Below are positions 5,214 through 63,258 of a stretch of 64,000 nt of DNA, piece after piece. This DNA comes from Typha latifolia. Lineage: Eukaryota; Streptophyta; Magnoliopsida; Poales; Typhaceae. Below the pieces are notes generated by a model. That model ran no database searches. It worked only from the letters and a program-made list of their open reading frames with translations, and was not told the DNA's origin. The stretch's first letter is position 1, and the number at the start of each line of letters is the position of its first letter. The DNA lies in the NCBI GenBank assembly GCA_019914945.1, contig CM034103.1:6510001-6574000 (forward strand). The letters run 5' to 3'. A program made the position numbers and the translations under genes.

Positions 5214-5430
5214 CGCGTTCGAACGCGGGTGGAGTGAGTTCGAAAGCGTTTTGTGAACAGGGTTGTGAACGTGGGTGAAGATAGTGTTCGAACGCCTGCA
5301 TCGCGTTCGCAAATATCGACAGGCGTGTTCGCTCCCACGTTCGAACGCCTGCATCGCGTTCGCAAATCCAGAAGAGCTAATTTGGTGCGTTCGAACGCGG
5401 TCGGGCGAGTTCGAACGCGGTCGACAAAAA
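5214..5430 (+). repeat. GTTCGAACGC palindrome cluster in LTR A1
   Basis: It contains several copies of GTTCGAACGC and relatives. The last two TTCGAA cores are at 5390 and 5410, 20 bp apart, with a CGGGC-containing linker. Between them and the left end are GCGTTCGCAAAT half-sites that can pair with GAACGCCTGCATC to form short hairpins. The cluster ends about 50 bp before the TATA box. Confidence 0.85.
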
Positions 5431-5466
5431 TTGTGTTTTTAGGGTTAATTTGAGTTGTTGGTTAGC

Positions 5467-5476
5467 CTATAAAAGG
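5467..5476 (+). promoter_or_regulatory. TATA box of LTR A1
   Basis: CTATAAAAGG lies between the palindrome cluster and a CT-rich leader. The position is conserved among A-family LTRs (same context near 35305 and 47940), as expected for a U3/R promoter. Confidence 0.7.
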
Positions 5477-6069
5477 ATGTGGTAGGCAACCAAATTGAGG
5501 ATTGGATTATTGAGATTGAGTTTTGCCTTGCCTCCTTCGTCTTCTTCGCTCCCGTTCTCTCAATCCCCAGCGACGCCGCTTCTAACCTCCCTCGTCCGGC
5601 TAATCACCCTAGTCCCTTAGGGGTGGCCCTCTTCTCCCCTTTCGTCCAATCTATCCATCACTTGCCCTAATCCTTCCATCAACCACAACCCTTCCACCAT
5701 CACTTTTCACCGGTGCCACCACATTAACGCTGGTCCACCTTCAACCACCACTACCTAGGATCACGTGCCTCCATCCACGGATCCAAAACATACCATCTGA
5801 CCATTGTCCACAAATCGGACGATATCTCGAGATCCCCACATCTGATTCGCCTGCAACTAGATTTGTTGGAAAGCTCTTTTCCGGAGCTACAACATATCAA
5901 AGTTTCACATCGATCCGACGGCAGCATATTTCGGGATATTATTTCAAAATTCCGTGCCAGATCTAGTCCAGATCAAGAATTGGAAGAGATCGACCCTTCA
6001 ATAAAAAGGCGAGATCGTATCAAGCTGGTATCAGAGCTCCATAGCCAGAGGCATGATCGTAACAAGTAC

Positions 6070-6254
6070 CCTTATTCCAGTTTGGATCCTAACTAGATGA
6101 CGTACTCCAATCCAGAACGAGTGGGTGACCGAGATTTTGGTGGAGTGGCACGAACACATAGTGGACGAGGCGACTTGGATGCCCGAATCTAACTTCATGG
6201 ACCCTTATCTAGATTTGACACCTTGAGGGCAAGCTGAACGAAAGTGTGGTGGAG
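6070..6254 (+). pseudogene. Gypsy chromodomain-like tail and PPT (B element, part 2)
   Basis: From 6113 the translation reads EILVEWHEH followed by DEATWMPESNF and a terminal DLTP, the usual end of a plant gypsy polyprotein with a chromodomain-like tail. A purine-rich AAAGTGTGGTGGAG (6241-6254) abuts the LTR and is the expected polypurine tract. This continues the integrase fragment at 4691-5098, with solo LTR A1 between. Confidence 0.75.
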
Positions 6255-6740
6255 TGATACGACTCGATCAGATTGGATCCACTCACAATATTGGGTTCAT
6301 TGGGATGAGCCTATTTATCTAGTTTGATTTTTGCTAGAGAAAATAAGGCTTTTTGCTAGGGGGAATTCGAACACTAGGAACTCGCTTTCTAACGGGTCAT
6401 TCTAACGCCTACACATGTTCACAAAAATAGAGAACGAGATTTGTGCATTCGAGCAGCCACGGGCCTGTTCGAACGCGACCATTTGAATGCCTGCACGCGT
6501 TCGCAATGACAGAGAACAATATTTGCGCGTTCGAATACGATCGAGCATATTTGAACGCACCACAGCAAGAACTATTAGTTTATTAGGGTTTTAATTTGGT
6601 TGTTTGGGTTAAAAGGGTGAGCCTCTATAAATATATGGAGGAAACCCTAATTGGAGTTTATCTAATAATTAGATCGACATTGTTGCCCTTATCTCGCTCT
6701 TTCTTGCTCTAGCCATTGGCGTCCTCTTCCACCTCCTTTC
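6255..6740 (+). repeat. B-family gypsy 3' LTR, truncated by LTR A2
   Basis: It begins TGATACGACTCGATCAG directly after the polypurine tract, so it is a 3' LTR. It contains a degenerate GTTCGAACGC cluster (6368-6560), a TATA box (CTCTATAAATATATGG near 6625) and a leader. It is interrupted at 6740, where LTR A2 starts; its downstream part is not seen. Confidence 0.75.
6368..6560 (+). repeat. Degenerate GTTCGAACGC cluster in LTR B
   Basis: Copies include AATTCGAACACT, TGTTCGAACGCG, ACGCGTTCGCAA, GCGTTCGAATAC and ATTTGAACGC. The arrangement and position upstream of the TATA box match the other LTRs, with more mutations. Confidence 0.75.
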
Positions 6741-7680
6741 TGATATGATTCGGATTTCACCGATGTCACCTCGAGCATGGATACACTTTAGGGATGTCTT
6801 TGTCTCTTATTTTAGTGTTTAATTCTAAAAAACTAAGTTTTTTGTATGTCGCGTTTAAACCCAAGTGGAGTGCGTTCGAACGCGCTTGTGAACGCCTGCA
6901 TTAGGTTCGCACATCCAGAGAGTGTGAAATGTGTGTTCGAACACCGCGTTCGAACGTCCCTGCGAACTCCTGCATCGCGTTCGCAAATCCAATGAAGTGT
7001 GAAATATGTGCGTTCGAACGTGATCGGGCGCGTTCGAACGCGGTCGGCGAAAATGTGCTATTTAGGGTTAATATTTGCCATTTTTGAATTGTTTGGTTAG
7101 CCTCTAAAGGTGTGGATGGCAACCATGGAATTATTATTGATGAATTGAGTTTTTACCCTGCCTCCTTCGTCTTCTTCTCTCCCATTCTCTCGTTCCCCGG
7201 CAACGCCGCTTCTAACATCCCTCGATCAGCCAATCACCCTAGTTCCTTAGAGCGGCCCTCTCCTCTGTCTTCTTCCAATCTATCCATCGCTTGCCTTAAT
7301 CCTTCCATCACCCATAACCCTTCAACCACCACTTACTCACTGGTGCCACCCCATTAACGCCGGTCCTCCACCATCCACCATCATCTAGGATCTCGTGCCT
7401 CCATCTACGGATCCTAAGACATACTACCCGACGTTCGTCCACTAATCGGATGATATCTTGAGATCCCAAATCCGATTCGTCTGAAACTTGATTTGTTGGG
7501 AAGATCTTTTCCGAGGGTACAACATATCAAAATCTCACATCAATCTGACGACGGCATCTTTTAGGATCTATTTCCAAAGTTTCCTGTCAGATCTTGTCCA
7601 AATCTAAAAATTGGAAGAGATCGAGCCTTCACAAAAAGGGGAGATCGTATCAAGCTGGTATCAGAGCAGAGATCGTATCA
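6741..7680 (+). repeat. A-family gypsy 5' LTR (A2)
   Basis: It starts TGATATGATTCGG. A first LTR-type end (GAGATCGTATCA) is at 7652 and a second at 7680, because a 28-bp segment holding the LTR end plus a PBS (7641-7668) is repeated in tandem at 7669-7696. The gag-proximal copy (GGCTGGTATCAGAGCCACC) is the PBS in the same place as in other A elements, so the first PBS copy probably lies inside the LTR. A palindrome cluster is at 6854-7050. The LTR is inserted into LTR B. Confidence 0.8.
6854..7050 (+). repeat. GTTCGAACGC cluster in LTR A2
   Basis: Motifs include GAGTGCGTTCGAACGCGC, the paired GTGCGTTCGAACG..GATCGGGC..CGTTCGAACGCGGTCGG near 7008-7050, and several GCGTTCGCAAATCC half-sites. 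It lies upstream of the LTR leader. Confidence 0.8.
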
Positions 7681-13770: not shown

Positions 13771-14599
13771 TGATACGAATCGGATCAAATCAGATCACAT
13801 CAAAAGGAGATTAGGTTCAATAGATTGAGTTTAATTATCTTATTTGGTTATTTAGTTTAGTTAGAGTGTTAGCAGGTTAGGATTTTATTTAATTAGCTAA
13901 ATTCAGCTCTATGCAATTTCGAGAAATATTTGTAGAATATTTTACACATATCTAAATAATATCAAACAAGTTGGATAAGGTCGTCAACCTCCAGATCTAC
14001 AAATTGGATATTCATTACTTCTCTAGATTCAGAATCTATCTGTGACAAAATGAAAGCTTAGTCCGAGAGGTAATCGGAGAAGATAAGGAATATTAGTTTA
14101 GTTGGTTTGTTAGGGTTTCATATTGTTTTAGGACTTATTGGCTAGCCTCTATAAATATGTGGATGGCAGACAACTTCATTATGCAATTGGATTATTTTGT
14201 TTTTGCCTCTTATCTTCTCTCGACCACTTCGTTCCCTTTGTCTACTTCCCTTAATCACTTCCACAATCCACCCTCATCTCCATACCCATCCATAACCCTA
14301 ACATCCACTTCACCCGTCACCACCACCATCACCCACGTTATTTCGTATTTTCAGCCCTGCTATAGTTTAAATTTACGAAGGGTAATATAAAAGTTGTATA
14401 TCAGGAAGATAGGATCCAACTTCATTGGTTTCATAATTTTCTAACTACTAGAGAATATTTGACAAATATTTTTCCACGATTGTGCGGACTGTTTCCTGCA
14501 ATAAATTCAGATCTTAAGGAATTGTTCTATAGCCAATCTTTTGGTTCCAGATTCTATCATTTGGTATCAGAGCCTATCAATTGGTATCAGAGCTTAAAA
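13771..14599 (+). repeat. D-family gypsy 3' LTR (D2) ending in three PBS-like units
   Basis: It follows the polypurine tract and starts TGATACGAATCGG. TATA box CTCTATAAATATGTGG is near 14150. The last 60 bp (14540-14599) are three consecutive 20-bp units of the form TTTGGTATCAGAGCYTATCA, progressively closer to an intact tRNA-Met PBS. CTCTA follows at 14600-14604; the five bases left of D1 are CTCTG, a 4/5 match that supports the end at 14599. There is no GTTCGAACGC cluster. Confidence 0.7.
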
Positions 14600-15805: not shown

Positions 15806-16677
15806 TGATATGGACCAAGCATCCGCTACAAAGTAGTCCGTGCAGTCAGAGAAAAATAATCTTAAAATATTCTACCATAAATAGAAAATTACAAAATTAG
15901 TAGCGATCGATCCGTAACTTCCTGATACACATTTTTGTATTCATGCCCTTCACAGATTCTAACTGTACCTAGGGGAAAAATACGCAAAAGTGGAGCAAAG
16001 GTGGAGGTGATGGGTGATGGTGATGATGGGGTAAGAGAGATGATAATCGTGATGGATTGGGTGGCATGGGTGTTGAGGGAATAAGGGTGGGGGGGGGGGG
16101 TGAAGTTGGTCGGGATCCCAAAGAGAAGAGAAGGGAGGACTTGATAGTCGAGGGGGATTAGAGGTAACTGACGATGAGATGGCACACGGCTAGGGCTTGA
16201 ACGAGGAGAGAGAAGAATTAGGGTAGAGAAGGAAGGGAAGGAAAGGAAAATTAATATTCATTCATAATGCTCCTTTAGGTTGCCATCAACATCTTAAGAG
16301 GCTAACCTAACAAGCCAAAATGGCAAGTAATAACTCTAGAAATAATGAATTCTCGTCGATCGTGTTTGAATGGGGTCGAGCGCGTTTGAAGCGCAATTTG
16401 CATTCACTGTCGATGCGAACGTATGCAGGCGTTCGCACGCGGATGTTCGATCGGGGTCGAGAGCATTCGAACGCACAAATTGCATTCTTTGTCGATGCGA
16501 ACACCTGCAGGCATTCGCGAGGGGTGTTTGAACGCGACCTCTCCGCATTCAAATGCGATATATAGAATCTTAATTTTTTATGAAGAAAATAACTAGAACA
16601 AAATAAGAATAGATCCCCATAGGTTGTATCCATACTCGAGATGACTCAGTGTGGTCCAAATCACATCGCTTTGATCA
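15806..16677 (-). repeat. F-family gypsy 5' LTR
   Basis: On the minus strand it starts TGATCAAAGCG and ends TCCATATCA, directly followed by a PBS-like AGTTGTATCAGAGAC. It contains a degenerate GTTCGAACGC cluster (16345-16565), a conserved GCTAGCCTCTTAAG context near 16290-16310, and a GGGGGG tract at 16091-16100. It is inserted in, or joined to, a plus-strand integrase on its right. Confidence 0.75.
16345..16565 (-). repeat. GTTCGAACGC cluster in LTR F (degenerate)
   Basis: Copies include GTGTTTGAATGGGGTCG, GCATTCGAACGCAC and GTTTGAACGCG, with paired GTTCGCAC/GTTCGCGA half-sites and the linker GGTCGAGAG. Most palindromes carry one or two transitions. Confidence 0.75.
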
Positions 16678-17059: not shown

Positions 17060-17367
17060 ACCATCTTGATCCAATTCGTAGCGGTTCTGCACGGGATTTG
17101 GGATCCACGGGTGGAGGCATGGATTCCTAGGTATAAGATGGAGGTGATGATGGATTGGAGGCCAAGTAGTTGATGGTGGTGGCTCAACAATAGATGATGG
17201 TGGTGGTGGTTTGCGGATGCGAATGTGATGGATGGTTGAAAGCTATGATTGGCCTACAACTGTGGTAAAAACTATTCGGGAGGTACAGATGGTTAAGATA
17301 AAGGGACGAAGGGGGGGAAGTAGGCCTGTCCAATGGGAACAGGGGGATCAGCGCCAGCGGGAGATTA
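17060..17367. other. No gene recognised
   Basis: About 300 bases rich in GATGGTGG-type runs. The start (GGGTGTTACGAACCATCTTGATCC) is reminiscent of an LTR edge but no partner is identifiable. The last bases, GCGGGAGATTA, resemble the polypurine tract of the copia element that follows. Confidence 0.4.
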
Positions 17368-17506
17368 TGTTAGGTTTTTATTTGTTGGCAATTGTGTACA
17401 AAATATTCTAAGTGTATTTTTTCATGTATATGAGCTTTACACAAGTTTAGAATATCTCTGATCTAAAGAATTGCAAGATTATTGGAGAAAAGTCATCGAG
17501 TTCACA

Positions 17507-17718
17507 CCGCGTTCACAAACGCGTTCGAACGCGGGTACTACGTTCACACAAACAGAGAGCCGCGTTCACAAACGCGTTCGAACGCGGGTACTGCGTTCAC
17601 ACAGACAGAGAGCCGCATTCACAAACGCGTCCGAACGCGAGTACTGCGTTCACACAAACCGAGAGCTGCATTCAAAAACGCGTTCGAACGCAACCTGAAG
17701 AATTCAAGTTGACGCGTT
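17507..17718 (+). repeat. 53-bp minisatellite, about four copies
   Basis: Units start at 17507, 17560, 17613 and 17666, exactly 53 bp apart; the last is partial. Each contains GCGTTCACAAACGCGTTCGAACGC followed by GGTACTGCGTTCACAC (here given in two parts of one unit) and an ACAGAGAG tail. Copy number differs between the two LTRs of each copia element. Confidence 0.9.
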
Positions 17719-17840
17719 CGAATGCACTCGGGCCCGTTCAAACGCACCCGGGCCGCGTTTGAACGCACCAACAAAGTTTGATAAAATTGGACTTTCATGA
17801 GTACGGATAAGACTTGGATTTGGCTCTATCTTGGAGATCA

Positions 17841-17849
17841 TATATAAGG
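17841..17849 (+). promoter_or_regulatory. TATA box of copia LTR
   Basis: TATATAAGG lies about 77 bp after the last TTCGAA-type core. The same context (GATCATATATAAGGATT) is kept in the other three copia LTRs. Confidence 0.7.
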
Positions 17850-18360
17850 ATTATGATGCCCTATCTTGAGGGTGGTTGAAGAAGATTATTGAAGGAGACT
17901 TCTTGAGGCTACATCGGTTCTTCAACTATCAAGATTTCACTCATCTATAAAACTTAATCTTTCGTCTTAAGGGTTATCTAGACGAAAGATCAATCTCGAG
18001 GGGTACTGAGATTGGACTTCAATCACAAGAAGCAGTGAATCGTGGGTTCTAGCGATCAAGACTGAGAGGAACAAAGTTGTTTGGATCGACGGGTTGTTTT
18101 GTGAGTCAGTCTTGTAACGGCTACTATTCTAGTGATTGGTTTTGATCCGAGTTTGGATCCGTGGTTTTTTCCCGTTTGGGTTTTTCCACGTTAAAATCTT
18201 GGCATTCATCTCTACTTTCGTTCTTAATATTTCTACAGACTTTTACTTAAGCGAACGTGTGATATCATTGCCTAGTATTTAGATACATATTTGTGTCTAG
18301 GGATTTTTTCAATTGGTATTAGAACAGGTTCTCTCACTCTTTGAGAGAGATCCGATAGAC

Positions 18361-23157: not shown

Positions 23158-24160
23158 TTTTCTTTTTGTTTTGGTTTGCGTGTTTTGGTTTGCATGCTTC
23201 ATTTTTATAACTTTTTTTTTGTAGGTTTTCTTCACTCTAAAATTTTCTTTGGTTTTAGTTTTAGATTTGACGAGAGTTTTTGTCATAAAAAAAAATTGAT
23301 GCACTCCTAGATTCAATAATATACTCTTGACATATAAATATGATTTTTCTCTTGATTATGAGTTATTATAGTCAATTTTGTCATCTTGTAGTATATTGTA
23401 TTATTTCTGATTTATTCACTCTGTCAATTTCTATGATAATTATACTGAAATTAATGCACCCATAACGTGTGTATATTCTTGTGTGAGCATGACATCATGA
23501 AATTCTTTTTAAATAGCTCACAATTGACCTTGATTTGCACAGTTTGACCTCATGCTTAGTCATCACAAACGTGTTTATGAAAGATCAATGAAAAGGGCTA
23601 CAATGAGTTAGTGTGAAAGCCATCTGGTTGAGAATCCAGTTTAACTCAGTACATTGATTGCAAATTAAATAAAATTTTTGCTACTTGTGTATATATTCTC
23701 GCACATTGTTTGATTTGTACTACAAGAAAAGCGCTACCTACTCATGTGTGAAAGCCATCATTGCACCTATATGGTTTATGTATAAAAAATAATATAGGAA
23801 AAATTCTTGTTATGTTATGGGGAATAAGTCGAAAAGTGCAAAATTTCAATACTAAGTCGGTTTGACTGCTGTGTTGCATCATTGTTTATATAGGAAAGTT
23901 TGTTTAAGAAGATTGGTTCATGTTATCTATGCTCATCTTGCATATGCGTATCGTTATGATCAATCAAGATTAATTTAATTTTGAGTGATGCATTAGAATT
24001 GATTATAATATGCTTTTGATGATTTGATTGATCTGTGTATGACTTATTTCATTTGATTGTCATATTCTATGTCTTGAATGTATTTTGAATCTTTAGATAT
24101 GCATCTCCAAAAATATTTTTTGATTTTTTCTTAGATTTTATTTTTTACTTAAAAAAAGGG
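23158..24160. other. Copia post-pol spacer, non-coding
   Basis: AT-rich, about 1 kb, no supported ORF. The corresponding spacer of copy 2 is at 43283-42290. Poly-T tracts and GTGTGAAAGCCATC-type repeats (23610 and 23740) are present. Confidence 0.6.
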
Positions 24161-24240
24161 CGTTCGAACGCAAATTTTTAAGTTCGAACGAGGTGACTGG
24201 CGCGTTCGAACGCGCAGACTGGTGCGTTCGAACGCACTCG
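24161..24240 (+). repeat. Internal GTTCGAACGC cluster before the accessory ORF
   Basis: Four TTCGAA cores at 24163, 24183, 24205 and 24227 (spacing 20, 22, 22 bp), mostly inside GCGTTCGAACGC. The cluster is outside the LTR, after the pol spacer and 15 bp before a TATA-like box. It is retained at 42195-42285 in the inverted copy 2. Confidence 0.9.
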
Positions 24241-25779: not shown

Positions 25780-26121
25780 GCAAAAAGGGGGAGAGTGTCT
25801 AGGTGTCTAGGTGTGTAGGGGGAGCATGGCAATAGGGGGAGTTTATTAGAGTCTTTCTGTCTTTCTAATCTTGCTTATAACTTTGCTTGGAGAAATTGTG
25901 AACTTTGTCTGTTTAAGTACTTTTGAACTTATGCTCCATTGATAACTTGTGTTTGGATTGTTTATTCATTTCAAGTTATTTTCACTTGATCTTGGATTGG
26001 TATATGTTTATTTGTAGGGATTGATGTGCAAAATATTCTAGTCTTGTTGATTGCTCAATTTGAAGTCTGTGTAATATCTTGTAACCTAGGTGTTTTGTCA
26101 CAAATTACCAAAGGGGGAGAT
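25780..26121 (+). promoter_or_regulatory. Multiple polypurine-tract block
   Basis: Purine tracts CAAAAAGGGGGAGAG (25783), TAGGGGGAGCATGG (25817), AATAGGGGGAG (25830) and CCAAAGGGGGAGA (26109) precede the 3' LTR; the last abuts it and is the primary plus-strand primer. Repeated polypurine tracts of this form are characteristic of Sireviruses. Copy 2 keeps the last tract but has a mutated third tract (CTCCCACTATT, 40606). Confidence 0.75.
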
Positions 26122-26264: not shown

Positions 26265-26398
26265 GTTCACAAACGCATTCGAATGCGGGTACTGCGTTCA
26301 CACAGACCGAGAGTTGCGTTCACAAACGCGTTCAAACGCAACTGAGTTCAAGTCATGCCGTTCGAACGCACCCGGGCCGCGTTCGAATGCACCAACGA
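26265..26398 (+). repeat. GTTCGAACGC cluster in copia copy 1 3' LTR
   Basis: Two 53-bp units followed by a pair of TTCGAA cores separated by a CCCGGGCC linker (21 bp centre to centre). Confidence 0.85.
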
Positions 26399-29404: not shown

Positions 29405-29406
29405 GC

Positions 29407-29409
<3 letters not shown>

Positions 29410-30912: not shown

Positions 30913-31808
30913 TGATACGATCTCCCCTTTAGGCGAAGGCTCGATCTATTCTGATTTCCAGATCTGAACAGAATCTGCCACGGAACTTTAGAAATAGATC
31001 CCGAAAGATGTCGCCGTCGGATAGATGTGAGATTTCGATTGTTGTAGCCTCAGAAAAAAGCTTTCCAACAAATCAAGTTTCATGCGAATTAGATGATGGG
31101 ATCTCAAGATATTGTCTGATTAGTTGACGAATGTTGAGAAGGCTGTATTAGGATTCGTGGATGGAGGCACGAGATCCTTGATGATGGTGGTTGGTGGTGG
31201 ACCGGCGTTATGGGGCGGCACGAGTGAATAAGTGGTGGTAGAAGGGTTATGGGTGATGGAGGGGTTAGGGCAAGTGATGGATAGATTGGAAGAAGGGGGA
31301 GGAGAGGGCTGCACCTAAGGGACTAAGGTGATTGGCCGGTCAAGGGAGGTTAGAAGCGACGTCGACGGGAATCGAGAGAATGGGAGCGAAGAAGACGAAG
31401 GAGATAAGGCAAAAACTCATTTCATCAATAATGACTCTATAGTTGTCATCCACACCTTTAGAGGCTAACCAACAATTCAAAATTAACTCTAAATAGTGCA
31501 TTTTTGCCGACTGTGTTAGAACGTTCCCGATCACGTTTGAACGCACTTATTTCTCACTTCTATGGATTTGCGAATGCGATGAAGGCGTTCGCAAGCACGT
31601 TCGAACGCAGGCATTAGCAGGCGCGTTCGAACACACAATTCGCACTCTCTGGATGTGCGAATGTGATGCAGGCGTTCACAACCGCGTTCGAACGCGGCAT
31701 ACAGAAAACTTATATTTTTTTAAGAATGAAACACTAAATCAAGAAACAAAGATACCCCTAAAGTGTATCCGTGCTCAAGACGACATCGATGAAGTTCGAA
31801 TCATATCA
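30913..31808 (-). repeat. A3 element 3' LTR
   Basis: On minus it begins TGATATGATTCGAAC after a polypurine tract (AAGGTTGCGGAAGCGTGGTGG) and ends GGAGATCGTATCA. It contains the GTTCGAACGC cluster at 31510-31700 and a CT-rich leader. The 3' terminus has no PBS-like tail, unlike A1. Confidence 0.85.
31510..31700 (-). repeat. GTTCGAACGC cluster in A3 3' LTR
   Basis: Motifs GTTAGAACGTTCCCGATCACG, GGCGTTCGCAAGCACGTTCGAACG (given as neighbouring segments), GCGCGTTCGAACAC and ACCGCGTTCGAACGCGG, several mutated. Confidence 0.8.
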
Positions 31809-34921: not shown

Positions 34922-35821
34922 TGATACGATTCAGACTTCACCGACGTCGTCTCGAGCATGGATTCACTTTAGGAGTGTTTTTATTTCATGTTTTAGTGTT
35001 TAATTTCCATTAAAATAAGTTTTCTATAAGTCGCGTTCGAACGCGGATGGAGTGAGTTCGAACGCGGTTTGTGAACGGGGTTGTGAACGTGGTGAAGAGA
35101 ATGTACTGTGCGTTCGAACGCACTGTGAACGCCTACATCGCGTTCGCAAATACCGACAGGCATGTTCGATTGCACGTTCGAACGCCTGCATCGCGTTCGC
35201 AAATCCAGAAGAGCGAACTCGGTGCGTTCGAACGCGGTCGGGCGAGTTCGAACGCGGTCGACGAAAATTGTGTTTTTAGGGTTAATTTGAGTTGTTGGTT
35301 AGCCTATAAAAGGATGTGGTAGGCAACCAAATTGATTATTGATTATTGAGATTGAGATTTGCCTTGCCTCCTTCGTCTTCTTCGCTCCCGTTCTCTCAAT
35401 CCCCGGCGACGCCGCTTCTAACCTCCCTCGTCCGGCTAATCACCCTAGTCCCTTAGGGGTGGCCCTCTTCTCCCCCTTTGTCCAATCTATTCAACACTTG
35501 CCCTAATCCTTCCATCAACCACAACACTTGCCCTAATCCTTCCATCAACCACAACCCTTCCACCATCACTTTTCACCGGTGCCACCACATTAACGCCGGT
35601 CCACCAACCATCATTTCCTAGGATTTCGTGCCTCCATCCACGAATCCAAAACAGAGCATCCTGACGTTCGTCCACTAAACAGACGATATCTCGAGATCCA
35701 CAACTCCGATTCGCCTGAAACTTGATTTGTTGGAAAGCTCTTTTCTAGGTCCGTGCAAGATCTAGTCCAGATCTGAGAATCGGAAGAGATCGATCTTTAG
35801 CCCAAAGGAGAGATCGTAACA
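34922..35821 (+). repeat. A4 5' LTR
   Basis: TGATACGATTCAG to GAGATCGTAACA, 900 bp, followed by a mutated PBS AGCTGGTAATCGAGCCACC. Contains a GTTCGAACGC cluster at 35034-35265, TATA box CTATAAAAGG near 35303-35312, and a 32-bp tandem duplication in the leader (CACTTGCCCTAATCC at 35497 and 35525). Confidence 0.9.
35034..35265 (+). repeat. GTTCGAACGC cluster in LTR A4
   Basis: At least six GTTCGAACGC-like sites. The last pair (GTGCGTTCGAACG and GAGTTCGAACGCG around GGTCGGGC) has 20-bp spacing. GCGTTCGCAAATCC half-sites face GAACGCCTGCATC. Confidence 0.9.
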
Positions 35822-37835: not shown

Positions 37836-38035
37836 AAACGCAAAGGGGTCATGTTTGAACGCCCTTGCGAACGCATGCATCAGGTTCACAAATACAGAGA
37901 ACGCATATTGTGCGTTCGAACGCGGTCGGGCGAGTTTGAACGCCCACGTTCGAACGCCTGCATCGCGCTCGCACATACATAAAACATCTTTTGTGCATTC
38001 GAACGCGATCGGGCACGTTCAAACGCGATTGGCGG
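37836..38035 (+). repeat. GTTCGAACGC cluster in LTR H
   Basis: Contains GTGCGTTCGAACGCGGTCGG, CCCACGTTCGAACGCCTG and GCATTCGAACGCGATCGGGC-type sites, partly mutated. Confidence 0.85.
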
Positions 38036-39620: not shown

Positions 39621-40326
39621 TAAAAAAACCCCTAGACATAAGTATGTATCTAAATACTAGGCAATGATATCACTCGTTCTCTTAAGTAAAAGTCTATAGA
39701 AATATTAAGAATGAAAGCAGAGATGAACGCCAAGATTTTAACGTGGAAAAACCCAAACGGGAAAATATCACGGATCCAAACTCGGATCAAAACCAATCAC
39801 TAGAATAGTAGTAGTTACAAGACTGACTCACAAGATAGGGCATCATAATCCTTATATATGATCTCCAAGATAGAGCAAAATCCAAGTCTTATCCGTACTC
39901 ACGAAAGTCCAATTTTATCAAACTTCGTTAGTGCGTTCGAACGCGGCCCAGGTGCATTCGAACGGCATGACTTGAACTCAGTTGCGTTCGAACGCGTTTG
40001 TGAACGTAGCTCTCGGTCTGTGTGAACGCAGTACCCGCGTTCAAATGCGTTTGTGAACGCGGCTCTCTGTCTGTGTGAACGCAGTACCCGTGTTCGAACG
40101 CAGTACCCGTGTTCGAACGCGTTTGTGAACGTGGCTCTCTGTCTGTGTAAACGCAGTACCCGCGTTCGAATGCGTTTGTGAACGCGGTGTGAACTCGACG
40201 GCTTTTCTCCAATAATCTTGCAATTCTTCAGATCAGAGATATTCTAGACTTGTGTAAAACTCATATACATGAAAAAATACACTTAGAATATTTTGTACAC
40301 AATTGCCAACAAATAAAAACCTAACA
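39621..40326 (-). repeat. Copia copy 2, 3' LTR
   Basis: 706 bp. The outer dinucleotide is TA on the plus strand where TG is expected. About 210 bp of the downstream LTR part are deleted relative to the 5' LTR, while the 53-bp minisatellite is longer (about four units plus a 19-bp partial, 39980-40195). Confidence 0.85.
39930..40195 (-). repeat. GTTCGAACGC minisatellite in copia copy 2 3' LTR
   Basis: About four 53-bp units, one interrupted by an extra 19-bp partial copy (GCAGTACCCGTGTTCGAAC near 40080-40118), plus a promoter-proximal TTCGAA pair at 39937-39962. Confidence 0.85.
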
Positions 40327-40683: not shown

Positions 40684-41732
40684 CTAGGAACTCGGAGGAA
40701 ACTGACGCTGAAGAATCGTCAACACAGAATCAAGGACAGTCCCCTAACGAGCTTGCTCAGCTCGTAAATCATTCACGGTCGAATGGAGATCCTACACTTG
40801 AGTACTAAGCTGATCAAAACGGTCAGAATACTGTGGTAACTCCCCCTCAGAGTGAGATGTGTCACCGTCAGAGCTATCATCAGAACTGTCGAGGTGCGAG
40901 GAGCGACCAGCGGCGGAAGAGGACGGATTGAGAGGAGACAACTGGTCGTGAGCTTGACTCCGCTTAAGAGTAATCCATCCAACGGTTTGTGCGAAGTAAG
41001 AGAAGGTTCCGAAGCATCCATACACACCTCACTCTGAGTGCACAAATTTGTAAGAAAGATGCCAAACGGTAACCCCTCACGAGGTGCTTCTTTCTGTGCA
41101 GCTGTGAGTATTGAATCATAGATCACCCCAGCCAAATCAACCGAGACGCCAGATAACATTACATGAAGAAGAAATGCACGATCCAGACTAATGCTTGAAT
41201 GTCGAGTCTTGGGGATGACATTGTACAGACAAAACAGGTGAAGCATGCGAGCCACTGGTGTCAGCTTCGCATGCGGCATCATGTTCCCTTTCCAACGTTC
41301 CCCTTTGATCAGTACAGTGCCAGCATAGTCATCAACATCGGGAAGTGGAGCAGACGTGGGGTACTGGAACTCACCATCAGGAAGACGAAGTTCAACGCGA
41401 ATGACATCTGAGTCCAAGTACACAGACACCCCACGAACAGTAGAACGAATACAGCGTTCTGAAACTGTGGCATTACTAAAAAATTCCCGAACAACTTCCA
41501 CTTAAGCAGTTCTGCTCATCCGACACACTGATAACCATCCTCGCTCAATAAATATCTGTTCTATCCCCAAGGTAGAAAAATTGGAAATGACCACGAGTCG
41601 TTCACAGATAACAGGACGGGTCCCAAAATTATGTTTGTATCGCCCAGCAGCCGTTGAAGTAGAAAACTTTGGAGTCGAAGTAGGTGAGGAAGGCGGCCTA
41701 GGTTTCTTGGAAACTGCAGCTTTTCTAGGCAT
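40684..41732 (-). pseudogene. Accessory ORF of copia copy 2
   Basis: Minus-strand ATG at 41732, same stop as copy 1. It is 1,049 bp against 1,050, with a one-base shift near 40990. Stops differ from copy 1: there is a TAA before VEVVREFF (about 41503) and one near 40750, while the positions broken in copy 1 are sense here. The globular middle is one open stretch of 242 codons. Function unknown. Confidence 0.7.
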
Positions 41733-42194
41733 TCTTGAGAAAGAAACAAGATGCAAGATTCAATATATGCCCAAAGCAAACAAAAAGATAGCAAGAAATA
41801 AAAAAATCTAAGAAATCATGAAGGCCCTAAATCCATCATCCACTTGAAAACGTTAAGATATCACGTTCAATCACACAAGAAACATCAAGATAGTAACTTT
41901 AACGTGATCAAAACTCGAAAACGCACGAAATCAATCAAGATCAAGAGACTTAATTGAATAAAAAATAGGAAAATTGATGGATGATCATACCTCGCAAAAG
42001 TGAAGAAAAACTAAGAAATTCGGCCGAAAGATGCTAGATCCGGAGGAGAACGACCCTTTAAAAGGGTTTGTAATGAGAAATTTGATGAAAAATAGCAAGA
42101 TCTTGAAGATTTAAACGGGAGAAAATGAAGGGTTTCTAGGGTTTGGAAGATGGAAGATGAAAACCCTTGGGTTCGGACGCAATATTTAAAGAAT

Positions 42195-42285
42195 CCTCGA
42201 GTGCGTTCGAACGCACCAGTCTGCGCGTTCGAACGCGCCAGTCACCGTGTTCGAAGTCAAAAATTTGCGTTCGAATGCCCTTTTT
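42195..42285 (-). repeat. Internal GTTCGAACGC cluster of copia copy 2
   Basis: Same four-site cluster as at 24161 in copy 1, on the opposite strand, one site mutated (GTGTTCGAAGTC). It is adjacent to the TATA-like ATTTAAAG on the accessory-ORF side. Confidence 0.85.
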
Positions 42286-46020: not shown

Positions 46021-46071
46021 ATGCCTATCTGATCTCTCTCAAAGAGTGAGAGAACCTGCTCTGATACCAAT

Positions 46072-46867
46072 TGAAAAAACTCCTAGACACAAGTATGTAT
46101 CTAAATACTAGGCAATGATATCACTCGTTCGCTTAAGTAAAAGTCCGTAGAAATATTAAGAACGAAAGCAGAGATGAACGCCAAGATTTTAACGTAGAAA
46201 AACCCAAACGGGAAAAAACCACGGATCCAAACTCGGGTCAAAACCAATCACTAGAATAGTAGCAGTTACAAGACTGACTCACAAAACAACCCGTCGATCC
46301 AAACGACTTTGTTCGTCTCAGTCTTGCTCGCTAGAACCCACGATTTACTGCTTCTCGTGATTGAAGTCCAATCTCAGTAGCCCTCGAGATTGATCTTTCG
46401 TCTAAATTAAGTTTTGTAGATGAGTGGAACCTTGATAGTTGAAGAACCGATGTAGCCTCAAGAAGTCTCCTTCAATAATGCTTCTTCAACCACCCTCAAG
46501 ATAGGGCATCACAATCCTTATATATGATCTCCAAGATAGAGCAAAATCCAAGTCTTATCCGTACTCACGAAAGTCTAATTTTATCAAATTTCGTTGGTGC
46601 GTTCGAACGCGGCCCGGGTGCGTTCGAACGGCATGACTTGAACTCAGGTGTGTTCGAACGCGTTTGTGAACGCAACTCTCGGTCTGTGTGAACGCAATAC
46701 CCGCATTCGAACGCGTTTGTGAACACAGTGTGAACTCGACGGTTTTTCTCTAATAATCTTGCAATTCTTCAGATCAGAGATATTCTAGACTTGTGTAAAG
46801 CTCATATACATGAAAAAATACAGTTAGAATATTTTGTACACAATTGCCAACAAATAAAAACCTAACA
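46072..46867 (-). repeat. Copia copy 2, 5' LTR
   Basis: Plus-strand TGAAAAAACTCC to CCTAACA, next to the PBS complement on the left. It has two 53-bp units and a GTTCGAACGC pair at 46596-46625 with 21-bp spacing. TATA CATATATAAGG on minus is near 46515-46527. Confidence 0.9.
46595..46740 (-). repeat. GTTCGAACGC cluster in copia copy 2 5' LTR
   Basis: Two promoter-proximal TTCGAA cores around GCGGCCCGGGTGCG, then two minisatellite units. Confidence 0.85.
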
Positions 46868-47531: not shown

Positions 47532-48488
47532 TGATACGATTCAGACTTCACCGATGTCGTCTCAAGCATGGATTCACTTTAGGGGTGTCTTTATTTCTTA
47601 TTTTAATATTTAATTCCTAATAAAATAAGTTTTCTGTAAGTTGCATTTGAACATAGGTGGAGTGTGTTCAAACGCTGTTGTGAATGAGGTTGTGAACACC
47701 TGCATCACATCCAAAGAGTGTGAATTGTGCGTTCAAACACGGTGTGAACACCTGTATCGTAGTTGCAAATCCAGAGAAGTGGGAAACAAGTGCGTTCGGT
47801 CGCGTGCTCGAATGCCTGCATTGCGTTCGCAAATCCAGAGAAGAGCAAACTAGGTGCGTTCGAACGCGAGTGGGCGCGTTCAAACGCGGTCGGCGAAAAT
47901 GTACTATTTAGGGTTAATTTTGAATTGTTTGGTTAGCCTCTAAAGGATGTGGATGGCAACCATAGAGTCATTATTGAAGAATTGAGTTTTGTCTTGCCTC
48001 CTTCATCATCTTCGCTCTCGTTCTCTCGATCCCCGGTGATGCTGCTTCTAACCTCCCTCGACCGGCCAATCACCCTAGTTCCTTAGGAATGGCCCTCTCC
48101 TTCCCATTCTTCTAATCTACCCAACACTTGTCCTAACCCTTCCATCAACCATAACCCTTCCACTGCCACTTTTCACCAGTGTCACCCTATTAACGCCGAT
48201 CCACCACCAACCACCATCATCTAGGATCTCGTGCCTCCATCCACGGATCCTGATCAAACCTCCTGACGTTCGTACACTTATCGGATGATATCTCAAGATC
48301 TCCACATCCGATCTGCCTGAAACTTGATTTGATGGAAATCTCTTTTCTAGAGCTACAACATATCCAAAATTCATGTCACTCTGACGGCGGTATCTTTTAG
48401 GATCTATTTACAAAGTTCCATGCTAGAATCTATCCAAATCTGAGAATTGGAAGAGATCGAACCTTAGCCAAAATGTGAGATCATATCA
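47532..48488 (+). repeat. A-family gypsy 5' LTR (A6)
   Basis: TGATACGATTCAG to GAGATCATATCA, 957 bp, followed by PBS AGATGGTATTAGAGCC. Palindrome cluster 47645-47895. The usual CTATAAAAGG is CTCTAAAGG here. Inserted in H-element pol. Confidence 0.85.
47645..47895 (+). repeat. GTTCGAACGC cluster in LTR A6
   Basis: Contains GTGCGTTCGAACGCGAGTGG and GCGCGTTCAAACGCGGTCGG with 20-bp spacing, plus several decayed sites on the left. Confidence 0.85.
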
Positions 48489-50095: not shown

Positions 50096-50895
50096 TGATA
50101 GACTTTGATACCAAATGATGAGATCTGGAACCAAAAGATTGGCTATGGGACAATTCCTTAAGATCTGAATTTATTGTAGGAAGCAATCCACGCAATCGTG
50201 GGAAAATATTCTTTAGATATTCTCTGGTAGTCAGCAAATTACAAACCCAATTGGGTTGGATCCATAACTTTCTAATCTACAACTTTTGTATTTATGCCCT
50301 TCGCAGATTCGAACTTTAGCAGGGAAAAAAATATAGAATAACGTGGGTGATGGTAGTGGTGACGAGTAAAGTGGATGTTAGGGTTATGGATGGGTATGGA
50401 GATGAGGGTGGATTGTGGAAGTGATTAAGGGAAGTAAACGAAGGGAACGAAGTGGTCGAGATCCCAAAGAAGAGGGGTGACTCGATAGTTGAGGGAGATT
50501 AGAAGCGAAGAGAAACCTTGCCAACGGTAGATGTGGAATGATGGTGAAGAGGGAGGAGGGAGAAGTCTAGAGAGAAGATAGGAGACAAGAAATCAAAAAT
50601 CCAATAGCATTATGAAGTTGGCTGCCATTCACATATTTATAGAGGCTAGCCAACAAGTCCTAAAACAATATAAAATAATTCTAGAGGATTCCCGTCAATC
50701 GCGTTCGAATGCGCCCGATCGAGTTCGAACACACTCAAAAAGCACCTTCTTTGGATTTCAGAATGCAACACAAGCGTTCGAATGCAGGCGTTCACAAGGC
50801 GTTCACAAGGGCGTTCGAACGCGACCTACACGAATTTTATTTTAATGAAAATAAACTCCTATTATAATAAGAAAAAATCTTAACTAAGTGTATCA
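50096..50895 (-). repeat. D-family 3' LTR (D3) ending in two PBS-like units
   Basis: The minus-strand start TGATACACTTAG follows the polypurine tract. It contains a GTTCGAACGC cluster (50690-50830) and TATA box TATAAATATG (50633-50642). The final 40 bp are TTTGGTTCCAGATCTCATCA plus TTTGGTATCAAAGTCTATCA, both like the tRNA-Met PBS. The target duplication follows immediately, so they lie inside the LTR. Confidence 0.85.
50690..50830 (-). repeat. GTTCGAACGC cluster in LTR D3
   Basis: GCGTTCGAATGCGCCCGATCG, GAGTTCGAACACACTC, GCGTTCGAATGCAGGCG and GGGCGTTCGAACGCGACC, with one duplicated GGCGTTCACAA. Confidence 0.85.
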
Positions 50896-55751: not shown

Positions 55752-55869
55752 CCTGCTTTGATACCAATTGGTAGGCTCTGATACCACTTGATAAGCTCTA
55801 ATACTAATTTGTTAAGCTATGATACCAAATGATAAGCTCTGATACCAAATGATGAGCTCTGGAACCAAA
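55752..55869 (-). repeat. Six tandem PBS-like units at the LTR D5/gag boundary
   Basis: Units (plus coordinates) 55850-55869, 55830-55849, 55810-55829, 55789-55809, 55769-55788 and 55752-55768. Each is about 20 bp of form TTTGGTATCAGAGCTTATCA on the minus strand. By comparison with D3 the first two belong to the LTR and the other four lie between LTR and gag. The gag-proximal one (ATTGGTATCAAAGCAGG) is in the normal PBS position. Confidence 0.85.
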
Positions 55870-56607
55870 AGATCGGCTATGAATCAATTCCTTAAGATCT
55901 GAATTTATTGTAAAAAGCAGTCCGCGCAACAGTGGGAAAATATTCTTCCAATATTCTCCGATAATCAAAAATTACAACATTAATTGGGTTGGATCCGTAA
56001 CTTTATGATCTACAATTTCGTATTTATGTCCTTCACAGATGTGAACTTTAGCAGGGACAAAAATACGGAATAACGTGGGTAATGGTGGTGATGATTGGTG
56101 AAGTGGATGTTAGGGTTATGGATAGGAGTGGATTGTGGAAGTGATTAAGGAAAGTAGACGAAGGGAACGAAGTGGTCGAGATCCCAAAGAAGAGGGGTGA
56201 CTCGACAATTGAGGGAGATTAGAAGCGAGGAGAAATCTTGCCGATAGTAGATGTGGAAGGATGGTGAAAAGGGAGGAGGGAGAAGTCTAGAGAGAAAATA
56301 TGAGGCAAGAAATTAAGAATCCAATAGCATTATGAAGTTGGCTGCCATTCACATATTTATAGAGGCTAGCCAACAAGTGCTAAAACAATATGAAACCCTA
56401 ATTCTAGAGGATTCTCGTCGATCACATTCGAACGCGCCCGATCGCGTTCGAACGCACTCAAAAAGCCTCTTCTCCGGATTTGCGAACACGACACAGGCGT
56501 TCGAACGCGGGCGTTCACAAGGGCATTCGAACGCGACCTACAGGAATTTTATTTTAATAAAAATAAACACCTAATGCAATAAGAAAATATCTTAACTAAA
56601 TGTATCA
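55830..56607 (-). repeat. D-family 5' LTR (D5)
   Basis: It starts TGATACATTTAG on minus and contains a GTTCGAACGC cluster (56405-56540) and TATA box TATAAATATG near 56347-56356. The inner end is set by alignment to D3. Followed by the CATAT target duplication at 56608-56612. Confidence 0.85.
56405..56540 (-). repeat. GTTCGAACGC cluster in LTR D5
   Basis: Pair GCGCCCGATCGCGTTCGAACG with 20-bp core spacing, plus GGCGTTCGAACGCGGGCG and GGCATTCGAACGCGACC. Better preserved than in D3. Confidence 0.85.
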
Positions 56608-60393: not shown

Positions 60394-60480
60394 GTTATCC
60401 TTCTACTTAGGTTCTACCCTATGTCTGATGTTAAATAGTTTTAGTTATTTGTTTTCAGTTATCAGTAAGCAATAAATTGT
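60394..60480 (+). terminator. MYB 3' UTR with polyadenylation signal
   Basis: AATAAA at 60471-60476, 78 bp after the stop codon, in a T-rich context typical of plant 3' ends. Confidence 0.5.
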
Positions 60481-61440
60481 TATGTCATTTCATTTTTGTG
60501 ATGGAAACTTAAAGATAGCAGTCCTGCGTCTTCATGTTCTCCATCCAAAACAATGGGCAATGTAAACTTCTTTTCTTGTGATGCTTGGTGGTACGTGGCA
60601 TGTTAAATTCTGCGCGTAGAGTCCATTAGTTTTGCTGTCATTTTAGATTATGATTTTGTTAGAAGAGTGTTCTAATGCCAATGCCCGCACCGATATAAAA
60701 TTACTGAGAAGACTGAGGCAAGATGTAGGCACTAGGCAGTCTATCATTGATTCTATGTGGTTATTTTGTCGGCACAAACATGTGATGATACAGCATGTAT
60801 GATGTGAGCCTTGCAGGCACTTTTTTTTTCTTTTTTTTTCTTACGGACACTGCAAGGATGATACTAGTGCAATCCTTCTGATAATTTAATGGATATTCTC
60901 TTTAAACTCCTAGGTGTGACGCACTCTTCAAGCCCATAGCTATACCAGCGTCAGCTATTATTCTTAAAACAGCACCATTATATGTCAATTGTTTTATATG
61001 AGTTAAATCTTTAATTGTGATGGTTTTGTTACATTTTTCTTGGGCTTACAAAAATATCATACTTCAAATTTTTTTATATGTTTGAACACTGCGAAAGAAT
61101 TTGAATCAATCATGTCCGTCAGAGATGATAATTTTTTATAAGTTTGATATTTATTTTAATAAAAAAATTTAGTAGCTAGTCTAAATTATTTATATGTTTA
61201 GATTTTCTGTCTTCCCATACACAGGAGGAGAGAATGTCTGGTATACGTGTCAAATTAGTTTGGCCAACTTAGCCCATCTTCCAAGTCCAGATCCTCCTAA
61301 TAAATTAAAGCTTAAGGGAGCTTGCTATGATGGATTAAGGGTGATTGAGCTCAACTTCAAGGGGACACAAATTGAGTTAAACCAGCAATGCCAGTTCAGA
61401 CCGATCCGTCCGAACCAAGACGAGCAAGATTGAAAGAGCA
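60481..61440. other. Intergenic, little recognised
   Basis: AT-rich, with T-rich tracts near 60820-60842. An 80-codon open frame at 61194-61433 lies just before a gypsy-like 3' end and may be the decayed end of that element's polyprotein or chance; no domain is recognised. Confidence 0.4.
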
Positions 61441-61491
61441 ACTCATCCACCCATCACTTTGAGGACAAAATAAACGGAAAGCATGGTGGAT
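61441..61491 (+). other. Gypsy polyprotein end and polypurine tract
   Basis: CACTTTGAGGACAAAATAAACGG reads as the usual end of gypsy pol (TLRTK-like), followed by purine-rich AAAGCATGGTGGAT abutting LTR I. Confidence 0.5.
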
Positions 61492-62335
61492 TGATGTGAT
61501 CTAGGTCAAACCGGACCACCTCGTGGACATTAGGCTCATGGCTTGAGTCACCTGTTTAGATAATGAGTTAATTTCAGCATTTAGTTTAAGTTCTTTCTAG
61601 CTTATCGAGTCGGTTTAACATTGGATTTATTGTGGGTTGGATAATTGGTTAGCCTCCACTATATAATGTGGAGTGCAACCTAAATTAATAATGTTTTGAT
61701 GAATAAGCTTTTTTAGCTGGGGCATTCAAATGCAAAGAAGGGTCGTTCGAACGCCTATATTCCATTCGCAAAGTCAAAGATCCTGTTTTGGCAATTCAAA
61801 CACCTCCCAAGCCGTTCGAATGCTCCGCGGCGCAAATGATTGTATTAGGGTTATTTTTTCTTAGTCGTTTGGTTGATAGGCTAGCCTCTAAATATGTTGA
61901 AGGCAGCCTCATTAGGGATTATCTAATAAATCATTGAGTTGACATATCTTCTCCCCTCTAATCTGAAACTTCTCCCTCCTCACACAAATCCTAGCGGCGT
62001 GCCACCTCGGCACAGGTTACCCCTAACCTCCTTTGACTATCAGACCCTCCCTTCTTCTTAGGATACCGACCATCTTCTCCCCCCTCTTCCTTCACCCTAT
62101 TGCACTTTGTGCAAACCATACCCAACATCCACGTCCACTCCATCTCCACCTTCATCAACACCTCCACCATAACTTTGCCTATTTTTGCCTTAGCTACAGT
62201 CTGAATCTACAAATGGCATAGTTACCAAAAATATAGAAAAGAAGATATGGAACGAACCCGTCTAGTTTAGTAATTTTCTAACTATGAGAGAATATTTGAC
62301 GAATAATCTTGTCTGACTACGCGGACTACCTTTCT
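61492..62335 (+). repeat. I-family gypsy 3' LTR, decayed
   Basis: It begins TGATGTGATCTAGGTC after a polypurine tract. Contains a degenerate GTTCGAACGC cluster (61735-61830), GGCTAGCCTCTAAATATG, the CT-rich leader, and CGCGGACTACC near the 3' end. The terminus is not clear. Confidence 0.65.
61735..61830 (+). repeat. Degenerate GTTCGAACGC cluster in LTR I
   Basis: GGTCGTTCGAACGCCTAT, CCATTCGCAAAG and GCCGTTCGAATGC, the minimal recognisable set. Confidence 0.65.
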
Positions 62336-62410
62336 ACACACGAACGCAAACCGGTAGTCAAGATCAAGTAATAACACCATTGCCACCAACATACCGCTTC
62401 CTTAAACCGA

Positions 62411-63258
62411 TGATACACCTTATTAGAGTCTTTTCTTATTGCATTAGTTATTTATTTTCATTAAAATAAATTTTTTGTAGATCGCATTCGAACGCAGAAG
62501 GGGCACGTTCAAACGTCTTTGCGAACGCCTGCATTAGGTTTGCAAAAACAGAAAATGCGAAATATGCATTCGAACGAGGTCGAGCACGGTCGAGCGTGTT
62601 CGAACGTCTACATCAGGTTTGCATCGACAGTGAACACCTTTTGTGCGTTCGAACACGATCGGGCACATTCGAACGCGATCGGTGGGAGTCCACTAGAATT
62701 AGGGTTAAAAATTATTATTTTGACTTGTTGGCTAGCCTCTATAAATGTGTGGATGCTAGCCAAAATTATTATGCTATTAGAATATTGGTTTCTTGTCTCT
62801 CTATCTTCTCTCTAGTCTCTCTACCCTAATCTCTCTCCTCCCTCTTCACCAACCTACCACCTCTACCGTTAGCAAGATCTCTCCTAACTTCTAACCTCCC
62901 TCGTCTGTCAAGTTCTTTCTCTTCTTTGGGATCTCGACTATTTCTTCCCCTTCATCTTTATCCCTTAAACAACATCACCCATCCACCCTCACCTCTATTA
63001 TCATCCATAACCCTAACATCCACTCCACTCGTCACCACAACCATCATCCGCACTATATCATATTTTCATCCCAGTTTCAGTTCGAATCTGGAAGGGGCAT
63101 AAATACAAAAACGTAGATTAGAAAGTTATGAATCGATCCAATTTAGTTTCATAATTTTACGACTATGGAAGAATATATGGTAAATATTTTACCTCGGTTG
63201 TGCGGACTACTTCCTGCAATCAATCCAGATCTTGAAGGGATCATTCCGTAGCCTATCA
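62411..63258 (+). repeat. Solo LTR J (D/H-related gypsy)
   Basis: It starts TGATACACCTTATTAG and ends CCGTAGCCTATCA, with perfect target duplication ACCGA (62406-62410 and 63259-63263). Palindrome cluster 62485-62690 and TATA CTATAAATG at 62739-62747. The 3' end has no PBS-like 20-bp unit, making it the reference 'short' end for the family. Confidence 0.9.
62485..62690 (+). repeat. GTTCGAACGC cluster in solo LTR J
   Basis: TTCGAA cores at 62648 and 62668 (20 bp, linker with GATCGGGC) and several upstream decayed sites (GCATTCGAACGCAG, GTGTTCGAACGTC). Ends 65 bp before the TATA box. Confidence 0.85.

Follow-up and report, generated by a model that had tools for sequence, protein, structure and literature searches.

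The subject of this study is a 12-bp palindrome, GCGTTCGAACGC, that recurs in the long terminal repeats (LTRs) of retrotransposons in a 64-kb window of the Typha latifolia genome (GenBank assembly GCA_019914945.1, contig CM034103.1, positions 6,510,001 to 6,574,000, forward strand). The window, by which we mean this whole stretch, lies on contig C5 of the 214-Mb assembly, whose 62 contigs were used for genome-wide counts. An initial annotation had described clusters of the palindrome in copia and gypsy LTRs. Both kinds of carrier were found, and the number of carrier groups was corrected from two to at least three unrelated LTR groups.

Palindrome clusters in the window

The window was scanned for GCGTTCGAACGC with up to two mismatches allowed, and the chance level was taken from 100 dinucleotide shuffles. 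The scan generated 83 near-copies, against a shuffle mean of 0.73 and a shuffle maximum of 4. 81/83 matches fall in 18 clusters, which occupy 4 copia LTRs, 12 gypsy-type LTRs and 2 positions internal to copia elements (Table 1). The two remaining matches are single, at 54474 and 63650. The clusters reported earlier for gypsy LTRs and for all four copia LTRs are thus present, while the two copia-internal clusters had gone unmentioned. The earlier element labels (A1, D3 etc.) could not be matched one to one. The TTCGAA cores quoted at 5390/5410, 62648/62668 and 17717 are exact; the two other copia cores are the variants TTCAAA (17737) and TTTGAA (17758). The CGGGC-type linkers between cores are as claimed (ggtcgggc, gatcgggc, actcgggc and acccgggcc).

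Genome-wide, exact GCGTTCGAACGC occurs 14,944 times and the same string read backwards 0 times. For comparison with ordinary DNA, 20 stretches of 10 kb were sampled at regular steps from contigs C1-C5, giving 200 kb. When all perfect 12-base palindromes were compared in the window plus the samples, GCGTTCGAACGC was found 41 times and, two AT repeats excepted, no other was found more than 3 times.

Table 1. Positions of palindrome clusters and of diagnostic Sirevirus features in the window. LTR coordinates are in parentheses.
Feature	Position	Strand	Motifs	Remarks
Array, A-type gypsy LTR (5097-6037)	5215..5418	+	6	last pair 20 bp apart
Palindromes, diverged gypsy-type LTR (about 6255-6741)	6465..6538	+	2	L001 relative
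Array, A-type gypsy LTR (6738-7667)	6872..7041	+	5	
Array, gypsy-type LTR (15827-16630)	16429..16535	-	3	
Array, Sirevirus 1 5' LTR (17356-18311)	17521..17766	+	7	
Internal cluster, Sirevirus 1, between pol and env-like-ORF-homologous region	24160..24235	+	3	<=2 mismatches, plus a weaker motif at 24180
Four AGGGGGAG copies 5' of 3' LTR, Sirevirus 1	25786..26119	+		motif scan
Array, Sirevirus 1 3' LTR (26122-26628 continuing 29470-29782)	26275..26390	+	4	
Array, A-type gypsy LTR (30913-31816)	31533..31695	-	5	
Array, A-type gypsy LTR (34915-35750)	35033..35255	+	6	
Array, B-type gypsy LTR (about 37834-38630)	37912..38026	+	5	
Array, Sirevirus 2 3' LTR (39620-40326)	39933..40173	-	7	
Four AGGGGGAG copies 5' of 3' LTR, Sirevirus 2	40329-40847	-		motif scan
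ORF in env-like position, Sirevirus 2	40776..41501	-		Pfam PF20167, named putative plant transposon protein
Internal cluster, Sirevirus 2, upstream of env-like ORF	42169..42278	-	4	
LTR/primer-binding-site junction CAATTGGTATCAGAGC, exact, Sirevirus 2	46058..46073	-		motif scan
Array, Sirevirus 2 5' LTR (46072-46867)	46599..46714	-	4	
Array, A-type gypsy LTR (47524-48503)	47664..47887	+	5	
Array, B-type gypsy LTR (50095-50895)	50701..50822	-	4	
Array, B-type gypsy LTR (55812-56607)	56424..56534	-	4	
Palindromes, probable gypsy-type LTR relic	61743..61823	+	2	downstream 61868-62332 matches 16-kb LTR
Array, B-type gypsy LTR (62412-63257)	62484..62676	+	5	last pair 20 bp apart

Copia carriers

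By their sequence features the two copia elements of the window are Sireviruses, because they carry the LTR/primer-binding-site (PBS) junction and AGGGGGAG tracts. The junction CA/ATTGG/TATCAGAGC and the polypurine octamer AGGGGGAG are defined as Sirevirus features in the parts of PMC2829016 covered here. The junction of Sirevirus 1 has two mismatches, at 18310 (+). The best protein match of the copia query is a Typha latifolia protein (86% identity over 64% of the query).

The same parts of that source (Bousios et al. 2010) describe Sirevirus repeated motifs (RMs) as palindromes that form CpG islands and precede TATA in the LTR, and place another cluster of them before the env-like gene (PMC2829016). 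The Typha copia arrays are likewise palindromic, multicopy and CpG-rich, stand shortly upstream of TATA, and have a second cluster before the env-like region. The copia arrays of the initial annotation are therefore real, and their description is corrected to a Sirevirus repeated motif of the known kind, including the cluster before the env-like region. RMs are counted as at least 8 copies per element, linker and 3' LTR together. Sirevirus 2 has 4 + 7 copies (internal plus 3' LTR); Sirevirus 1 has 3 + 4 at up to two mismatches and reaches 8 when the weaker copy at 24180 is counted. Unlike 12/13 published RMs (only Tnd-1, with another sequence, is the exception), GCGTTCGAACGC has no CGG-CCG core (PMC2829016, in the parts covered). 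The Sirevirus 2 open reading frame (ORF) with the PF20167 domain is presumed to be env-like by its position alone. Sirevirus 1 contains DNA homologous to the env-like region, in which no ORF of at least 180 aa is listed.

Three further observations concern Sirevirus DNA. The 3' LTR of Sirevirus 1 is interrupted at 26628-29470 by a ~2.8-kb insertion ending near a run of 48 T (29410-29457). A Sirevirus LTR elsewhere (L004:1375-2117) has 16 palindromes with 11 successive 55-bp spacings, a recent array expansion. At L026:282-1233 a Sirevirus-type internal palindrome cluster directly adjoins an A-type gypsy LTR that itself carries an array.

A third carrier came to light at L027, a locus picked from the genome-wide list of palindrome pairs. 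It has eight palindromes and, beyond 35-41 bp of motif, matched no sequence in hand. A genome search with this LTR returned 72 match rows, from the 40 scored of 264 candidates, including several same-strand pairs ~4.9 kb apart. The copy on contig C11 is about 5.65 kb long, with LTRs of ~730 bp that are 98.5% alike. One of its ORFs contains Retrotran_gag_2 and Pol_BBD domains and another RVT_2. Its reverse transcriptase (RT) is 42% identical to that of the window Sirevirus over 103 aa and its Pol_BBD region 28% identical; database relatives of the Sirevirus Pol_BBD region from plants mostly show 40-57% identity. Its polypurine tract (PPT), AGGTGGAG, is one base off the Sirevirus octamer. The junction, CA/AATTGG/TATCAGAGC, is only one base from that of Sireviruses, in contrast to the differences in PPT, size and RT. 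From these sequence comparisons the third family is provisionally classed as non-Sirevirus, probably classic copia. In L027 (about 2160-3000), an LTR of this family lies within ~1 kb of DNA that, judged by eye only, resembles the coding sequence of a NAC-type transcription factor.

Gypsy-type carriers

A Ty3-type gag ORF (35939-36907) lies downstream of the A-type LTR 34915-35750. The ORF at 50926-51564 (-), adjoining the B-type LTR 50095-50895, contains a chromodomain (PF00385). The gypsy carriers are accordingly regarded as chromovirus-type, with the chromodomain at the end of pol seen in this one element. The other gypsy-type subgroups (at 16 kb and 6.3 kb in the window, and L001, L006, L028, L030, L041 and L043) were assigned by LTR similarity only. 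Next to B-type LTRs there are tandem 20-bp units at 55755-55873 (-) (5.9 units) and 14558-14597 (+). Several of these units carry the PBS string TATCAGAGC or a near copy, and look like duplicated primer-binding sites.

Confinement to LTR DNA and position upstream of TATA

The palindrome could have been equally common in non-LTR DNA of this genome, so the samples were divided by an LTR mask, defined as sample DNA that matches window LTRs over at least 100 nt. All 17/17 exact palindromes lie within the 10.9 kb of LTR-matching DNA and 0 in the remaining 189 kb; since the mask was built on similarity to window LTRs, the arrays could have aided matching, but most matches reach well past the arrays. 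The density of TTCGAA is 4.68 per kb in LTR-matching DNA vs 0.196 per kb elsewhere (24-fold). Five matches with one or two mismatches lie outside the mask. Of these, one is only 50 bp away, another adjoins an 88-bp LTR match at the edge of a stretch that was too short for the mask, and three are isolated. Clusters of at least two motifs are in LTR-type DNA in 11/11 cases, the weakest LTR assignment being that of L006 (69-73% identity over 211-360 bp). For the samples, this confinement rules out a feature of ordinary DNA.

A set of 34 LTRs (9 Sirevirus, 19 gypsy-type and 6 third-family) was then scanned for TATA-like boxes. The array lies upstream of such a box in 9/9 Sirevirus, 6/6 third-family and 18/19 gypsy-type LTRs. 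In 9/18 gypsy-type LTRs the box is only a degenerate one (CTCTAAAGG and similar), a form that the scan pattern had admitted beforehand. The location originally given upstream of TATA thus stands, with this reservation for half of the gypsy-type boxes. Sirevirus arrays end 74 bp before TATATAAG in 9/9 LTRs.

Relatedness of the carrier groups

One palindrome in three LTR groups might simply reflect shared LTR ancestry. Unmasked BLAST between the groups gave short matches that cross palindromes (E 4e-5 to 7e-8; 0.17 for one subgroup pair). When the palindromes were masked, the best cross-group E was at least 0.004, apart from a single 31-bp stretch (E 3e-4) in which the third family matches a B-type LTR. 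Copia and gypsy LTRs had been described as otherwise unalike, and masking indeed leaves almost no similarity between them. Homology over the whole LTR length was ruled out by this comparison. 8-mers were also compared among the 34 LTRs, which include 6 of 10 third-family LTRs. At a threshold of at least 60% of the LTRs in every group, the only shared 8-mers are palindrome pieces, some with 1-2 flanking bases. With palindromes masked, no 8-mer was common to the three groups even at 40%. Shared ancestry is favoured by the mutual similarity of the gypsy-type subgroups in LTR BLAST, but the masked cross-group E values speak against it.

A related suggestion is that the palindrome merely resembles the B box of TFIIIC. 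The B-box string, GTTCRANNC, does resemble the core, but it needs a final C where the palindrome has G. The B box was rejected for this missing C, and a search of the window with ARAGORN yielded no tRNA gene. We regard shared ancestry or a chance B-box likeness as hardly credible.

Shared twin module and spacing

Sirevirus and gypsy-type LTRs both contain twin palindromes joined by a NNTCGGGC-type linker, and the third family has them in inverted orientation. To judge this sharing, linkers were extended by three bases at either end and compared between groups, and the best cross-group score was set against 500 shuffles. The best Sirevirus-gypsy score was reached in 3/500 shuffles, or 6/500 with inversion allowed. 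When inversion was allowed, the best score was reached in 0/500 shuffles for Sirevirus-third family and 1/500 for gypsy-third family, the best third-family match being a single 8-nt linker where the others at that position have 9 nt. Without inversion there was no excess sharing of linkers with the third family (468/500 for Sirevirus and 271/500 for gypsy). Across the genome the module with a TCGGGC linker was counted 301 times vs 0 for one scrambled linker. The shared module argues either for module transfer or for recognition of the linker, as well as the palindromes, by the bound complex. It fits the portable cassette proposed in the initial annotation, which had named exchange and convergence as routes; either may have operated.

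The linker length of exact pairs was counted genome-wide. There are 139 pairs with 8 nt, 137 with 9 nt and 214 with 10 nt, compared with 94 for 11-21 nt together, 249 for 1-7 nt and 1,526 for the full range of 1-30 nt. Subtraction leaves ~693 pairs for linkers of 22-30 nt, mostly at the 34-bp spacing of Sireviruses. Spacings of 20-22 bp are ~19x denser per nucleotide than those of 23-33 bp, and this holds through many different linkers. Among adjacent motifs, 15/60 Sirevirus, 22/67 gypsy-type and 23/41 third-family spacings are 20-22 bp. The first 50 listed exact pairs (linkers of 1-30 nt) comprise 21 at 20-22 bp, 14 at 34 bp and 6 at 15 bp. The core spacing of 20-21 bp noted earlier is therefore frequent without being dominant, and the two-turn spacing is a recurring preference, not a rule.

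A predicted binding array

We consider it probable, on sequence evidence, that the arrays are U3 binding arrays for one predicted DNA-binding protein that acts as a dimer, and that unrelated retrotransposons took them up by exchange, by convergence or by both routes. The protein, cooperativity, activation, regulation and the route of sharing are inferences. Each palindrome would be a putative site of one sequence-specific, probably dimeric, Typha nuclear protein. Twin sites about two helical turns apart would place neighbouring dimers on the same face of the DNA, where they may cooperate. With the TATA box lying about 30-90 bp further downstream, the array would increase transcription or set its timing, and the second Sirevirus array may drive the env-like ORF likewise. 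Unrelated LTR retrotransposons would have come to use this one protein. The ~32-bp module of twin palindromes and TCGGGC linker may have passed between families by recombination or template switching; alternatively, it may have been fixed repeatedly as the bound complex would read the linker too.

In favour of a binding array are the excess over chance in the window, the restriction of exact copies to LTR-matching DNA in the samples, the constant place upstream of TATA, three carrier groups that resemble one another only in the palindrome, the dense 20-22 bp spacings, the twin module common to the groups, and a layout like that of Sirevirus RMs. Conservation also counts for it. In aligned LTR copies of the Sirevirus, gypsy A and gypsy B sets, non-CpG motif positions score 0.88, 0.87 and 0.84, higher in each set than linkers (0.75, 0.71 and 0.67) and than the remainder of the LTR (0.84, 0.80 and 0.72); the compared pairs are not independent, and such alignment may favour motifs. 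The third-family LTR L036 shows what is retained within an array. Its eight palindromes are 0.97 alike, whereas its long linkers are 0.49 alike vs a shuffled mean of 0.48, i.e. at chance level. Its spacings stay at 20-22 and 41-43 bp.

Several points weigh against a binding array. The short linkers of L036 are 0.55 alike vs a shuffled mean of 0.46 and a 95% level of 0.53, a figure weighted heavily by one pair at 0.89. Spacings of 34, 15 and 53-55 bp are common too, therefore phasing is not strict; a strict two-turn rule is contradicted by the frequent 34- and 15-bp pairs, despite the preference for 20-22 bp over 23-33 bp. Finally, array units of 53, 55, 27 and 20 bp have been duplicated in tandem, and because copies multiply in this way, copy number alone is no proof of selection.

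The tandem units raise the possibility of neutral turnover, in which slippage and gene conversion spread a functionless repeat through LTRs. The 53-, 55-, 27- and 20-bp units do indicate recent expansion. However, neutral turnover leaves unexplained why one palindrome occupies a fixed place in three unrelated LTR groups, and why palindromes 0.97 alike stand amid long linkers at chance level in L036. We find this explanation very doubtful.

The main rival to a binding array is that the palindromes are chiefly targets of host silencing, through small RNAs, hairpins or CpG methylation, as proposed for maize Sireviruses. Five array stretches were folded as single strands and compared with shuffles; 4/5 fold better (z -2.7, -2.3, -4.8 and -7.1). 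Among 168 motif copies, CpG transitions account for 123/236 mismatches, which is what occasional methylation of the sites would produce. Bousios and colleagues are said to have described maize Sirevirus palindromes as small-RNA hotspots in 2016. In the parts of PMC5311732 covered, the palindrome-rich LTR region of maize Sireviruses is a hotspot of small-RNA mapping. Against silencing, the fifth stretch has a z of only -0.8, and self-complementarity follows from any palindrome array. The arrays are still CpG-rich, with an observed/expected ratio of 1.29-2.29 in the 18 window clusters vs 0.61 in non-LTR sample DNA. Silencing would not predict a spacing preference or a fixed distance to TATA, and elements should not be selected to retain a silencing target. 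We judge silencing as the chief role unlikely. The earlier idea of a methylation target gains a hint from the transitions, tempered by the CpG richness that remains.

As to the protein, a CPP/LIN54-type factor, a heat-shock factor (HSF) or some other factor may be considered, and the last is favoured because neither named factor explains the GCG arms. If the factor were of the CPP/TSO1 type (LIN54-like), the core would be the CHR element TTYRAA and the retrotransposons would be linked to the cell cycle. On the outside of the core, T4 and A9 are conserved in 167/168 and 166/168 motif copies; on the inside, T5 and A8 are conserved in 160/168 and 150/168. The end G persists in 140/168 and the end C in 144/168. 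The core middle varies to TTTGAA and TTCAAA, and TTYRAA fits, with C/T and G/A in the middle of nearly all copies. LIN54 is strict about the outer TT and AA but accepts Y and R at the centre (PMC4974476, in the parts covered), and TTCGAA is a functional CHR variant (PMC4705690, likewise). The genome has 9 matches to CPP-domain exons. On the other hand, LIN54 prefers a middle A-T pair, making TTCGAA a weaker site (PMC4974476, same parts). The conserved GCG/CGC arms are left unexplained, the middle changes could equally be products of CpG decay, and 9 exon matches make no expansion of CPP genes evident. A CPP-type factor is, in our view, decidedly unlikely.

An HSF reading an ungapped TTC-GAA seems to us more doubtful again. 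Binding to ungapped targets is described for some oomycete HSFs and for human HSFY2 (PMC11267843), and several Brassicaceae copia families have gained heat elements (PMC5059998), as far as the portions covered of these papers show. The plant heat element given there (PMC5059998), nTTCnnGAAn, nevertheless has a 2-nt gap that the TTCGAA core lacks, and it has no GCG arms. The classical heat element was rejected for the missing gap. No factor could be named from the literature: the 12-mer is absent from the literature searched, and GTTCGAAC occurs as a whole word in three papers, in one of which it is an 8-mer of an oomycete bZIP. A literature search for DAP-seq work on TTCGAA led to this bZIP paper only.

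Relation to known systems

In the parts of PMC2829016 covered, the RM is called Sirevirus-specific among Ty1/copia elements and absent from classic elements, and no comparison with gypsy is made. This restriction does not hold in Typha, where GCGTTCGAACGC also occurs in gypsy-type LTRs and in the third family with its other PPT, size and RT. Maize Sireviruses likewise have a palindrome-rich regulatory part of the LTR (PMC5311732), but their palindrome, CACCGGACTGTCCGGTG, differs in sequence (PMC2829016 Table 3; parts of both sources). The heat elements of Brassicaceae COPIA elements are similar in that several LTR families use one host-factor class through one promoter site. They differ in that they involve COPIA families and a short HSF site, whereas both superfamilies and a 12-bp palindrome with part of a linker are involved in Typha (PMC5059998, in part). 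The Typha core resembles the CHR element of LIN54/MuvB in fitting TTYRAA and in its near-invariant outer T/A, but the CHR definition in the covered parts of PMC4974476 and PMC4705690 has no GCG arms, dense arrays or mostly G-C middle, all of which are Typha features.

From the parts of the literature covered, Sirevirus palindromes (PMC2829016) and recurrent COPIA heat elements (PMC5059998) are known already. The Typha copia arrays belong to a kind already described, though their sequence is new. What does appear new is that one long palindrome array occurs in LTRs of both superfamilies within a single genome, and also in a copia family classed outside the Sireviruses. No report of a palindrome common to LTR superfamilies was recognised among the papers listed, as judged from titles, abstract openings and passages.

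Tentatively, and with less confidence than in the binding array itself, we suggest that LTR retrotransposons of both superfamilies (Sirevirus, non-Sirevirus copia and chromovirus-type gypsy) may be wired to one nuclear protein by a common cassette, palindrome-NNTCGGGC-palindrome, which was passed on physically and functions in both orientations. If so, activation or silencing would affect unrelated families jointly, and a regulatory module would move between LTR superfamilies independently of genes.

A common binding factor for Sirevirus palindromes could not be found in earlier work (PMC2829016, in the parts covered). If unrelated copia and gypsy families use one palindrome at the same promoter position, its factor would be a hub for the retrotransposons of this genome. 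Typha would then serve as a natural example for two questions: do regulatory cassettes travel from one LTR superfamily to another or arise anew each time, and does a common site allow the host to silence several families at once?

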